The notes beneath the pieces are model-generated. The model worked only from the letters and a program-made list of their open reading frames with translations, was not told where the DNA came from and searched no databases. Positions 4,785 through 8,312 of a DNA stretch of 34,633 bases are shown piece after piece. This DNA comes from Oscillospiraceae bacterium (lineage in GTDB: Bacteria; Bacillota; Clostridia; UBA1381; UBA9506): contig SVJT01000004.1 of the NCBI GenBank assembly GCA_015068865.1, positions 1-34,633 of the forward strand, in the 5' to 3' direction. A program made the position numbers and the translations under genes. How positions within the stretch are numbered: position 1 is the first letter of the stretch; every line of letters starts with the position of its first letter.

Positions 4785-4819
4785 AAAAGACTGTAGAAAA
4801 ATATTCTTCTACAGTCTTT
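4785..4819 (-). terminator. Rho-independent terminator of the BlaI/M56-LCP/SLH unit
   Basis: AAAGACTGTAGAA (4786-4798) / TTCTACAGTCTTT (4807-4819); on - strand followed by TTTTCG. Confidence 0.7.
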
Positions 4820-4823
4820 AAAT

Positions 4824-5459
4824 TTATCTTCCTATATTCATCCTCAATGTTCTTAACGGCAATCCATTTTTTCCATTGTTAATTACATAAATACCTTCCT
4901 CTTCCATCACCATCAAAGGCACATCCAAAGCCTGATAAATCATCACCGCCACATCGTGTCTCACCGCCGGCACATTTACCGCAAACTGCATTCCGTTTGT
5001 AATGCCCAAAACACCGGCTTGTGCCGTATAGCCGGCCGGATAACCTCCTCTCGCCATCGCCAACTCACTATATCCCAACAATGCCACAATCATTTTCACA
5101 ATTTCTTCGTTGGTAATTTCATTTTCAGGATTAAACTGTCCGTTTTCATCTCCATTCACAATGCCTGCTTCTTTTAATGCACAAACATAAGGAAACGCCC
5201 AATGAACAGCACTCACATCAGCAAACCCATCTGCCTCTGAAAACTCTGTTTGCGGTGTAATATTGCCTGCCACACATATCATTTTTGCTGCTTCTGCCCT
5301 TGTAATCGTGCGTTCTAAGTGCAATTTTCCAGTTTCATCACCAACCATAATACCCAAATCATATAACGTTTCCTTTTGTATGTCCTCTAACGCGAAAGTC
5401 CCTGCCATAGTCACCCACAGCATACTAAATACTAATAATAAAGCCATTATTTTTTTCAT
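4824..5459 (-). CDS. Secreted SLH-domain-only protein (signal peptide + about three SLH repeats)
   Basis: N-terminal MKKIMALLLVFSMLWVTMAGTFAL signal; repeats YDLGIMVGDETGKLHLERTITRAEAAKMI, FADVSAVHWAFPYVCALKEAGIVNGDENGQFNPENEITNEEIVKMI, AGVLGITNG...VRHDVAVMI; AAGGAG 8 nt before ATG at 5459. Confidence 0.85.
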   Translation of the reverse strand: MKKIMALLLVFSMLWVTMAGTFALEDIQKETLYDLGIMVGDETGKLHLERTITRAEAAKMICVAGNITPQTEFSEADGFADVSAVHWAFPYVCALKEAGIVNGDENGQFNPENEITNEEIVKMIVALLGYSELAMARGGYPAGYTAQAGVLGITNGMQFAVNVPAVRHDVAVMIYQALDVPLMVMEEEGIYVINNGKNGLPLRTLRMNIGR

Positions 5460-5471
5460 TATCTTCACTCC

Positions 5472-7808
5472 TTAATAAATTAAATATTGTCCGTCAATTT
5501 GCCAGGTTCCCTGTGTTTTTCCCTGAATATTGATGTCATAGGTTTTATTCCGGTCAAAACCTAAAAAGGAATAGGCATTTTGGTTATTGGCAAGCACAAG
5601 GTACGAACCAACATTTTCTTTTGTTGCCGAATCAAAGAAAGAAATCTCCACCAAATTATCGCTATTCACTGTAAAGTATACGGATATATTTCCATTTTCA
5701 TCACAGCTAATTTTTGAATTTTCATAATGTAAATCGTTCTCATAACTATAGTCATTAACAATATAACTCTCGCTTAGCTTCGTAACATGCTGTTCTCCCT
5801 CCACAGAACCCTTCCGCTTCAGTAGTTCCTGCATTGTTTCTATATTGGCATTTTCTAAAATTAAATGCTGAAATCCTCCGTAAGGCATCTCAGATTGTTC
5901 ATTAGACTTGATGGGAGTGATAATTTCTTCTTCCGTAACGGGATGTACTCTCTTTTGTGTTTTTATTACGCTTTGCGGCGGTGTCATCCCCTTTACATTG
6001 TTTTCAGCCGGTTTTTTTTCTGTTAATTGGTTCTCATTTGTTTTGCATTGAAAAAACTGCAATACTTCTTTTGCTGCTTCCATATCAATTTGATACTCAA
6101 ACAGTCCCTCTTCTGTCACAACATTCTGCCCGGGTATCTCCTTAAAGGTCATATGATTTATATCAATTTTTCGCAGGTTTTCTATATCAGATACTAAATC
6201 ATCCAGCTGATAATTCGTCGCAATTCCATCCGTCAGAAATTCATATAGCTGTTCCGCATTTTTTAGCTTATTTTCTGCAATAACTTGTGCAAAAAATTCT
6301 TTCATAACAGAAAACCACATATTTCTTCGGCCTGACTCACCGTTACTTCCGCCCCGATACCGTAACAGATTCATGACCTGCTTACCGTTTAACCGTTGCT
6401 TTCCTTTTAATAATTCAATATGTAAGTCCTTATATGGGTCATCATAAACCATATCATAGGGAATATCAAACTCCAGTCCGCCAACGCTGTCAATCAGCAT
6501 TTCTACTGCCTGCATCTTGACTTTTGCGTAGTAATGAACGGGTATTCCAAGACTGCGTACTGCATCTACAGCCAAACTGTCACCATTTTCTTTTACTAAA
6601 AGTTCCGACATTCTGCCACTATGTTCTTGGCTTACAAAGTTCACATTTCTGGGAATGGAGAGTACGTTTACTTTCTCGTCGTCAGAACGAACGACCAAAA
6701 TAGCATCGGCACGACCGTTTTCATCAACACCAAGCAGCAAAATATTAAATTCTTCTCCCTGCCTTGCATCCGCCCCTACTGAAATACTATTTTCTGTTGA
6801 AACACGAACTTTTCCGTTAAGCATACCGCTGATAAAAAAGGCGCTGATTACAAAAACAATTCCTAATCCAATAGCACAAAACAGCTTTTTTCTACTAAAA
6901 TTCGCTTTGTTCTTCATATTTTGAAAACGCCTTGCCAAAGTCTTTTTATCCCCTGACATTCCTGTTGTAAAAGAAATTTCTCTTGTCTTTTCGGCAGTTA
7001 ATAAGGCTAAAATTGTCTCCATATACCCCTTTGTTTCAGCTCGACTCATATTTTTTACTACCGCCATATCGCAAGAGCTTTCACAATCCAAATGAACCTT
7101 TTTTGCTACAACATAAACAATGGGATTGAACCAATGAACACATTTAACAAAACTCAAAAACCATTTATACAAAATGTCTTGCCGTTTAAGATGGGTACAT
7201 TCATGAGCTAAAACATAGTGCAGCTGTTCTTCCGTCAACTTTTTTTCCGGAAGTAAAATCACCGGCTTATAAATACCAACCATTAACGGCGACGTAATGA
7301 AATTGCACAAACGCACCGCAACATTTCGCTTTGTATATTCTCCCATAGCAGGACAATCCACCAATTTAGAATGTAACTGAATCCGTATCTTAAAAACCAT
7401 ATAGCCAATCACTTTAAAAAACAGTAATATTACGATTCCTATGAACCATATATAAGCAAATAGTTTATAATCAACTGCAGGCATCATATATTCTTCTTTG
7501 GGTGCAGCCGGAGCCTCCGTTACTTCCTGAATCGTTTTCTCTCCTTCAGGAACCGGCAGTGTGTTTTGAATTCCTTCCGTTTCCGACACCGTCACTCTTT
7601 CTGTTACAGGAATCGTCTTTTCTATATTTGCAGCCGGCAGTTCAAAGGCAATCGGCAAAACCATAACCGCTAACACTGCCAGCCACATATAATAATGCCA
7701 TCCCGGAGAAAAAATTTTTTTCGTAATGGGTCGCAACAGTAATAAAATAACTGCCAGTACTGTCCCAACACAAGATGTTACAAGAAAGCTTTTAAAAATT
7801 TCAGCCAT
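5472..7808 (-). CDS. M56 (BlaR1-type) membrane metallopeptidase fused to extracellular LytR-CpsA-Psr (LCP) domain
   Basis: Four hydrophobic segments (about aa 8-28, 38-57, 117-138, 308-331); zinc motif HECTH at aa 202-206; LCP motifs NILLLGVDENGRADAILVV, VLSIPRN, MLIDSVGGLEFDIPYDM, LLKGKQRLNGKQVMNLLRYR, SGRRNMW; start 4 nt after BlaI stop. Confidence 0.9.
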   Translation of the reverse strand: MAEIFKSFLVTSCVGTVLAVILLLLRPITKKIFSPGWHYYMWLAVLAVMVLPIAFELPAANIEKTIPVTERVTVSETEGIQNTLPVPEGEKTIQEVTEAPAAPKEEYMMPAVDYKLFAYIWFIGIVILLFFKVIGYMVFKIRIQLHSKLVDCPAMGEYTKRNVAVRLCNFITSPLMVGIYKPVILLPEKKLTEEQLHYVLAHECTHLKRQDILYKWFLSFVKCVHWFNPIVYVVAKKVHLDCESSCDMAVVKNMSRAETKGYMETILALLTAEKTREISFTTGMSGDKKTLARRFQNMKNKANFSRKKLFCAIGLGIVFVISAFFISGMLNGKVRVSTENSISVGADARQGEEFNILLLGVDENGRADAILVVRSDDEKVNVLSIPRNVNFVSQEHSGRMSELLVKENGDSLAVDAVRSLGIPVHYYAKVKMQAVEMLIDSVGGLEFDIPYDMVYDDPYKDLHIELLKGKQRLNGKQVMNLLRYRGGSNGESGRRNMWFSVMKEFFAQVIAENKLKNAEQLYEFLTDGIATNYQLDDLVSDIENLRKIDINHMTFKEIPGQNVVTEEGLFEYQIDMEAAKEVLQFFQCKTNENQLTEKKPAENNVKGMTPPQSVIKTQKRVHPVTEEEIITPIKSNEQSEMPYGGFQHLILENANIETMQELLKRKGSVEGEQHVTKLSESYIVNDYSYENDLHYENSKISCDENGNISVYFTVNSDNLVEISFFDSATKENVGSYLVLANNQNAYSFLGFDRNKTYDINIQGKTQGTWQIDGQYLIY

Positions 7809-7811
7809 ACA

Positions 7812-8183
7812 CTATTCCTCCATTTCGTCAAGCATGGCTCTGAGTTCCTGTATATCTTTATCTGTAAATGTCTGTTCTTCAAAAAAAGCTGCTGTAAATT
7901 CCCGAACCGAACCATTATATAAGCTTTGAATCAAATTCTTTGTTTGCGATTGACGATATTCTTTTTCCGTAATCATCGATGTGTAATAATATAATTTTCC
8001 TTGTTTTTCCGCCTTCAGTGCTCCTTTTTCCACCAACCTGGTAAGAAACGTGGCAATGGTCGTTTTCTTCCATCCCTTCGACTCCACTGCTCTGCCTATT
8101 TCTAAGGATGTTATCGGCTCCTTTGCCTTCCATATCACCTTCATAATTTCCAGTTCTGCCTCACCAATACTAATATGCTTCAT
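7812..8183 (-). CDS. BlaI/MecI/CopY family transcriptional repressor
   Basis: ISIGEAELEIMKVIWKAKEPITSLEI...GWKKTTIATFLTRLVEKGALKAEKQGKLYYYTSMITEKEY: BlaI winged-helix family; RBS GGAGGG. Confidence 0.92.
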   Translation of the reverse strand: MKHISIGEAELEIMKVIWKAKEPITSLEIGRAVESKGWKKTTIATFLTRLVEKGALKAEKQGKLYYYTSMITEKEYRQSQTKNLIQSLYNGSVREFTAAFFEEQTFTDKDIQELRAMLDEMEE

Positions 8184-8204
8184 TTTCTAACCCTCCAATT
8201 CATT

Positions 8205-8216
8205 CTACACGTGTAG
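8205..8216. promoter_or_regulatory. Candidate BlaI-type operator 1: CTACACGTGTAG
   Basis: Perfect 12-bp palindrome of the TACAnnTGTA-like BlaI/MecI type between promoter and BlaI start codon. Confidence 0.7.
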
Positions 8217-8220
8217 TTTA

Positions 8221-8246
8221 TTATATTCTACCATTGTAGAATATAA
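8221..8246. promoter_or_regulatory. Candidate BlaI-type operator 2: TTATATTCTAC-catt-GTAGAATATAA
   Basis: Perfect 11-bp arms with CTACnnnnGTAG core, overlapping -10 and spacer of the promoter. Confidence 0.75.
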
Positions 8247-8253
8247 ATGTCAA
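8225..8253 (-). promoter_or_regulatory. SigA-type promoter for the BlaI/M56-LCP/SLH unit
   Basis: On - strand TTGACA (8253-8248), 17-nt spacer, TAGAAT (8230-8225). Confidence 0.8.
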
Positions 8254-8280
8254 CCTATTTTTTAAATTTTACACAAAAAA

Positions 8281-8312
8281 AATCGGTTGGACACTATCCA
8301 ACCGATTTTTAA
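8281..8312 (-). terminator. Terminator downstream of rhamnulokinase
   Basis: AATCGGTTGGA-cacta-TCCAACCGATT flanked by A-run and T-run, usable on both strands; lies 3' of the rhamnulokinase stop. Confidence 0.85.

Follow-up and report, generated by a model that had tools for sequence, protein, structure and literature searches.

A BlaR1-type M56 protease fused to an LCP domain in Clostridia: a candidate receptor for lipid-linked wall polymers

To our knowledge, BlaR1 has been characterized only as an antibiotic receptor. One gene in the 34,633-nucleotide stretch of DNA analyzed here (the window; contig SVJT01000004.1 of the Oscillospiraceae assembly GCA_015068865.1) joins a BlaR1-type M56 protease to a LytR-CpsA-Psr (LCP) domain, and raises the question of what such a protein senses and whether its LCP domain still works as an enzyme. 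The first-pass annotation of the locus offered two readings: a sensor of undecaprenyl-linked wall-polymer intermediates, or an LCP enzyme itself tied to signalling. The receptor gene and its parts are:

5472..7808, minus strand: M56-LCP fusion receptor, 778 aa, uninterrupted ORF
6918..7781, minus strand: M56 domain (aa 10-297)
6957..6962, minus strand: G283-M284, putative autocleavage bond
6828..6884, minus strand: TM4 (aa 309-327), in the place of the single TM of a stand-alone LCP protein
6033..6755, minus strand: LCP domain (aa 352-592; Pfam core aa 366-508)
5475..5828, minus strand: C-terminal beta-rich module (aa ~661-778)

The single 778-aa ORF reported in the first-pass annotation is borne out, on the minus strand, which had been left unstated, and Pfam places both domains in it above the cut-offs: Peptidase_M56 (PF05569) at aa 10-297 (E 1.2e-57) and LytR_cpsA_psr at aa 366-508 (E 6.8e-19). 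PDB sequence searches give BlaR1 as the solved relative of aa 9-328 (E 2e-19), and the LCP enzymes Lin1025, Lmo1026, TagU, TagV, and MsrR as those of aa ~350-585. Hydropathy yields four TM segments (7-25, 41-59, 116-134, and 309-327), and the charge bias resembles that of BlaR1 (N-out, C-out, by charge and hydropathy only); the LCP domain is therefore predicted to be extracytoplasmic, as previously annotated. An assembly chimera or a frameshift is ruled out because the identical architecture recurs in six other genomes. The C-terminal beta module belongs to no Pfam family and gave just two weak lipocalin-like matches (E 0.28 and 0.54). The linker that precedes it (window ~5840-5890) contains KRVHPVTEE, similar to the GKRVHPITNE that starts the M23 domain in genome G040 and in the split sensors described below, and may be what remains of an M23 domain since lost.

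The fusion was found in seven genomes of three families within one class, with PF03816 (LytR_cpsA_psr) above the cut-off in all seven. It occurs in 6 of the 101 nearest genomes, own genome included, and in 3 of 10 genomes of the window's genus. A class-wide draw of 391 genomes adds a single one, G284, from another order, where the fusion is present in 1 of 16 genomes; a profile of the seven fusions run on this draw recovers G284 and the own genome alone, and 17 more genomes match just the M56 part. In a phylum-wide draw of 398 genomes, only the own genome is retrieved at E <= 1e-70. Because these large draws scored no more than two candidates from each genome, they may miss divergent fusions. 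No fusion was found on viral contigs. In the own genome (81% complete), the window receptor is the sole M56 match, the adjoining BlaI is the sole BlaI match, and one further LCP protein, a canonical one, is present.

The protease part is intact in sequence. The motif roles of HEXXH, ExxxD, and D210/Y261/R294 are described for BlaR1 in PMC9834060, and the equivalents of these active-site residues are all intact in 7/7 fusions: HECTH (aa 202-206, at the position annotated earlier), E243xxxD247, D211, Y262, and R294 are invariant. The G283-M284 bond matches the BlaR1 autocleavage bond S283-F284 in the phmmer register, and M284 is likewise invariant (7/7). For most of the M56 core, a full-length model built with five M56 relatives reached pLDDT ~70-87; its LCP part was uninformative, and the ectodomain modelled alone gave pLDDT 35. 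The only PDB matches of the model in Foldseek were to BlaR1 (6 chains, E <= 0.001), its M56 part fitting 8ext/8exr.

In BlaR1, the first extracellular loop occupies the empty sensor site, according to PMC9834060. The net charge of this loop ranges from -12 to -4 in the fusions (n=7) and from -7 to +2 in M56 proteins with other ectodomains (n=26); the fusions are more acidic (p 3e-4; p 4e-4 with 24 distinct comparators), a p value that overstates the case because the proteins are related. It is attractive to suppose that the acidic loop would lie in the arginine pocket of the LCP domain as a mimic of pyrophosphate. In the M56 tree the fusions do not form a clade because G321, which has no LCP domain, nests inside them; the single-clade hypothesis still stands at AU p 0.085. 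The tree set left out L031, L034, L055, and L050, which a motif filter had passed over, and the loop-charge test additionally L049.

The receptor belongs to a small operon with the following features:

8278..8310, minus strand: terminator-like hairpin parting the operon from the upstream FGGY kinase
8225..8253, minus strand: promoter TTGACA-17-TAGAAT (11/12 in a consensus scan), its -10 inside operator 1
8225..8242: BlaI operator 1, perfect palindrome ATTCTAC-N4-GTAGAAT, 0 mismatches
8202..8219: BlaI operator 2, CTACACGTGTAGAAT, 23 bp downstream of operator 1
7812..8183, minus strand: BlaI/MecI-type repressor, 123 aa (PF03965, E 1.2e-32)
4824..5468, minus strand: secreted protein of 214 aa with an SLH domain (PF00395, E 4e-18), encoded by the final gene of the operon
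4786..4819: terminator-like hairpin, scored on the plus strand, where the SLH and PHP genes converge

The locus has both features of a two-gene BlaI-BlaR1 system, an adjoining blaI gene and an operator at its promoter. In the window blaI lies 3 nt upstream of the receptor, and in 7/7 fusions it directly precedes it (<=10 nt upstream or overlapping). In a PDB alignment with BlaI (1sd4) and MecI (1okr), residues A99-F100 of the window BlaI align with the scissile N101-F102 of S. aureus BlaI. Operator 1, the sole 0-mismatch site in the window, covers the -10 element of the blaI promoter and is followed 23 bp on by a second box, CTACANNTGTAG; six relatives have the same tandem layout over the -10 upstream of blaI, with small changes in single boxes. 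A strict 15-mer pattern matches the own genome at this promoter only. Across the seven genomes it gave 18 matches (palindromic boxes counting on both strands), 17 of them at the blaI promoter, and the reversed control pattern gave 3. The remaining match, in G284, lies where a ribosomal protein gene begins and was taken as chance; with the strict pattern, the seven genomes showed no further operator targets. Since the tandem boxes occur by the strict pattern only on the operon's own promoter, the regulon essentially comprises BlaI, the receptor, and the SLH-domain wall protein, and in two genomes nothing beyond the first two.

The SLH gene starts 3 nt past the receptor in the window. Such a gene follows 6/6 of the beta-module receptors examined; it is absent behind the three judgeable receptors without a beta module (G072, G040, and G321), the G015 receptor, which ends at a contig edge, being outside this count. 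SLH domains bind pyruvylated secondary cell wall polymer (SCWP), as described in PMC6030368 and PMC10435577. The SCWP pyruvyl transferase gene csaB is present in 14/14 genomes, including all seven with the fusion, and does not discriminate because genomes without the fusion have it as well; SCWP is plausibly available as a ligand.

Comparison of the loci revealed several signs of module exchange: (i) the M56 cores of G015, G072, and G321, from three families, are 83-86% identical, whereas the LCP domains of G015 and G072 are only 36% alike and G321 bears a stalk domain (PF07833) instead of LCP on nearly the same core; (ii) the LCP domain of G072 is nearest to that of G040 (57%), yet their M56 cores are 49% alike; and (iii) the beta module ends M56 proteins without LCP in G022 and G029, with BlaI before and SLH after, and is missing in the fusions of G040 and G072 and in the sequenced part of the G015 fusion. 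Around the operon, gene order is conserved between the window and G001, a member of the same genus, and the flanking proteins compared are 79-99% identical. Within the operon, identity is 77% for BlaI, 85% for the SLH protein, and 83% for the beta module, versus 52-53% for M56 and LCP; DNA identity, 83-94% up to a point inside blaI (near 8040), is 45-74% beyond it and returns to 76-96% near 5900, between LCP and the beta module. This looks like a cassette, made up of the C-terminal half of BlaI, the protease, and the sensor, that was either exchanged or is diverging very fast. To judge from these sequences, loci exchange their M56, LCP, and C-terminal beta modules by recombination. We conclude that the M56-LCP receptor is real, conserved, and modular, and that it belongs to the M56/BlaI kind of signalling system, with a new sensor.

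The M56 proteins of the window's order, of which a genome may have up to ten or more matches, carry by eye many ectodomains (stalk, SLH, and unnamed ones, e.g. L018, L011, L013, and L020), and the C-terminal position can for this reason be regarded as a sensor slot. In G040 the fusion has an extra C-terminal LytM-type peptidase domain (M56-LCP-M23, L046:967-3174; PF01551, E 2.6e-26). A split BlaR1 was observed in relatives of the window's genus and family (G002, G017, and G008; L051:4914-8863, L052:5483-9222, and L053:5314-9323): the M56 core, 276-281 aa long, ends before TM4 and is followed by two or three separate genes, most with their own Shine-Dalgarno sequence. Each starts with M(L/F)(E/D)N.YTTKMS...LQNRF, just ahead of the equivalent of the autocleavage site, and encodes a TM segment plus an ectodomain that differs from gene to gene (stalk, M23, DUF4829, or Ig-like); the arrangement suggests a single protease served by interchangeable sensor subunits.

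The seven fused LCP domains form one clade (support 100/99) on a long stem, apart from 38 distinct stand-alone LCPs (41 rows minus 3 duplicates). Residue roles were taken from the accounts in PMC6381275 and PMC7831098. The pyrophosphate/metal-binding and catalytic residues, equivalents of TagT D82, R118, R219, and R227 and of Cps2A D246, are all present (5/5) in 7/7 fusions; in the window receptor the kept residues are D362, D368, R387, R485, and R494. They are invariant although the fused domains are only 29-57% identical overall. Other positions are lost, in the window receptor PRD (N388), KIN (R399-M400-S401), and Gln (W498). The position of Cps2A Q378, which according to the same two sources stabilizes the phosphate-binding arginines, is Gln in 38/38 stand-alone LCPs and in 0/7 fusions (W, W, H, W, G, G, and H). 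The Asp following the catalytic Arg (D388) is found in 1/7 fusions versus 36/38 stand-alone LCPs, and of the KIN motif K399 is kept in 1/7 and N401 in 0/7, versus 36/38 each. The first-pass annotation had described an altered R-x-R... region, which holds for the Gln but not for the intact catalytic Arg and Asp, and had overlooked the loss of PRD and KIN. In S. aureus LcpA, residues D123, K135, and N137 are linked to peptidoglycan binding in PMC7831098; we take these, from spacing rather than from an alignment, to be the PRD and KIN positions.

Of the 42 columns conserved in stand-alone LCPs, 22 are retained by every fusion and 8 are lost. Every one of the five donor residues falls in a retained column (p 0.03), and each of the four acceptor/pocket residues in a lost one (p 6e-4), in residue sets partly picked after the data were seen; since the seven domains are one clade, these are not independent cases, and Gln and KIN may have disappeared in a single event. 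Such a pattern would be expected of a domain that still holds a lipid-pyrophosphate donor but has ceased to handle the peptidoglycan acceptor. An LCP enzyme that is simply destroyed was rejected as stated, the catalytic Arg and Asp being invariant.

We propose that the receptor is a sensor of lipid-linked wall polymer, an enzyme turned sensor, and consider this reading evenly poised between right and wrong. It would be a BlaR1-type one-membrane signalling system with a repurposed LCP ligase domain, whose pocket outside the membrane would bind a polyprenyl-pyrophosphate-linked wall polymer, most likely the SCWP to which SLH proteins attach. Because the peptidoglycan-acceptor residues are lost, the donor would be bound without transfer, or with slow transfer only; the BlaR1 sensor is described in PMC7593790 as a beta-lactamase-like domain with slow deacylation. 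Binding would push the acidic first extracellular loop out of the pocket, the signal would pass via TM4 to the cytosolic M56 protease, and cleavage of BlaI would free the promoter at the tandem operators, giving more receptor and SLH wall protein. What the sequences establish is the architecture, the operon and its operators, the conservation pattern, the single LCP clade, and the module swapping; the ligand, the lack of transfer, the loop displacement, the BlaI cleavage, and the physiological role are what we infer. Between the two readings of the first-pass annotation, that of a sensor of undecaprenyl-linked intermediates is favored because BlaI adjoins the receptor in 7/7 fusions under an autoregulatory operator, the fused domains are a separate clade, donor residues are retained while acceptor/pocket residues are lost, and the modules swap with non-enzymatic ectodomains; the other, an LCP enzyme tied to signalling, keeps the catalytic arginines on its side.

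That second reading survives best among the alternatives, and we regard it as possible but rather doubtful: the LCP domain would be a working ligase whose amount alone is set by M56/BlaI, its own catalysis being the signal. Ligase activity may persist, since all catalytic Arg and Asp residues are retained; the strict operator is essentially confined to the receptor's own promoter, which leaves G072 and G040 with no evident product other than BlaI and the receptor; and in G040 (91% complete) no stand-alone LCP was found beside the fusion. However, a Gln universal in stand-alone LCPs is lost together with PRD and KIN, the own genome and 5/6 other fusion genomes carry separate canonical LCPs, and in G321 a closely similar M56 core bears a stalk domain.

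A gene for BacA/UppP (PF02673) lies beside the operon in 2/7 fusion loci, of unrelated families (L047:4330-5154 and L043:6680-7489): ~147 nt upstream on the same strand in G284, and divergent, with one gene between, in G005. This neighborhood, suggestive only, fits a receptor that detects drugs or peptides trapping the lipid carrier (bacitracin-like or lantibiotic-like), or carrier shortage, instead of the polymer, with UppP/BacA as part of the response. We consider this unlikely: the two cases were spotted after the fact, bacA has no operator by the strict pattern, and by eye no bacA gene adjoins the operon in the window or in G001, G015, G072, or G040.

Slightly less probable still is an LCP domain that is a mere wall anchor or spacer without ligand, the beta module and its SLH partner being the real sensor. 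The presence of the beta module on M56 proteins without LCP and next to an SLH gene, and its higher conservation between the window (G000) and G001, agree with this; on the other hand, G072, G040, and G015 as sequenced keep LCP without the beta module, and the donor-pocket residues are invariant in otherwise divergent domains. A beta-lactam receptor like BlaR1 is, despite the same core and repressor, highly improbable and contradicted by the domain content, by which the protein is not such a receptor: Pfam detects no penicillin-binding/transpeptidase domain in it, NCBIfam blaR1_generic scores 128 bits against a cut-off of 400, and the operon contains no beta-lactamase.

A fuller version of the lipid-linked polymer sensor can be put forward tentatively, as a scenario that we find on balance doubtful. 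The former ligase domain would read the pool of undecaprenyl-PP-linked SCWP, gated by the pyrophosphate-mimicking acidic loop, and would switch the BlaI operon that encodes the SLH protein, so that S-layer-type display would be coupled back to the supply of polymer; the sensor cassette would be swapped between bacteria like a cartridge. A BlaR1 relative with an LCP sensor would make the M56/BlaI chassis a general plug-in envelope receptor, would offer a candidate route by which Gram-positive bacteria monitor lipid-linked wall polymers, and would add a second example of an envelope enzyme that came to serve as its own sensor. Residues R387, R485, R494, N388, S401, and W498 are suggested for testing.

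No description of an M56-LCP protein was found in the open-access literature searched; the architecture may be listed, without study, in protein databases or subscription journals. Among known systems, BlaR1/MecR1-BlaI/MecI of S. aureus, as described in PMC9834060, shares with the window system the M56 core with HEXXH and ExxxD and four TM segments in an N-out/C-out topology; the autocleavage-like bond, adjacent BlaI, palindromic operators, and an enzyme-derived C-terminal sensor are common to both as well. The sensor of BlaR1/MecR1, however, is a class D beta-lactamase/PBP domain, whereas that of the window receptor is LCP, followed by an extra C-terminal beta module, and the output is BlaZ/PBP2a in the former and an SLH protein or nothing further in the fusion systems. 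The LCP ligases TagT/U/V, S. aureus LcpA, and Cps2A, as presented in PMC7831098 and PMC6381275, resemble the fused domain in fold family, donor-site Arg and Asp, extracytoplasmic location, and membrane tethering; in contrast, the fused domain is tethered by TM4 of the protease, has lost the Gln378-type residue, the PRD Asp, and KIN, and is a putative enzyme only. The BlaI regulons of C. thermocellum in PMC8457756 are likewise very small and autoregulated, with a BlaI-BlaR1 operon that controls mainly itself and ordered pairs of operator sites for four protomers; they are read there as beta-lactam systems, and the passages describing them mention no LCP domain.
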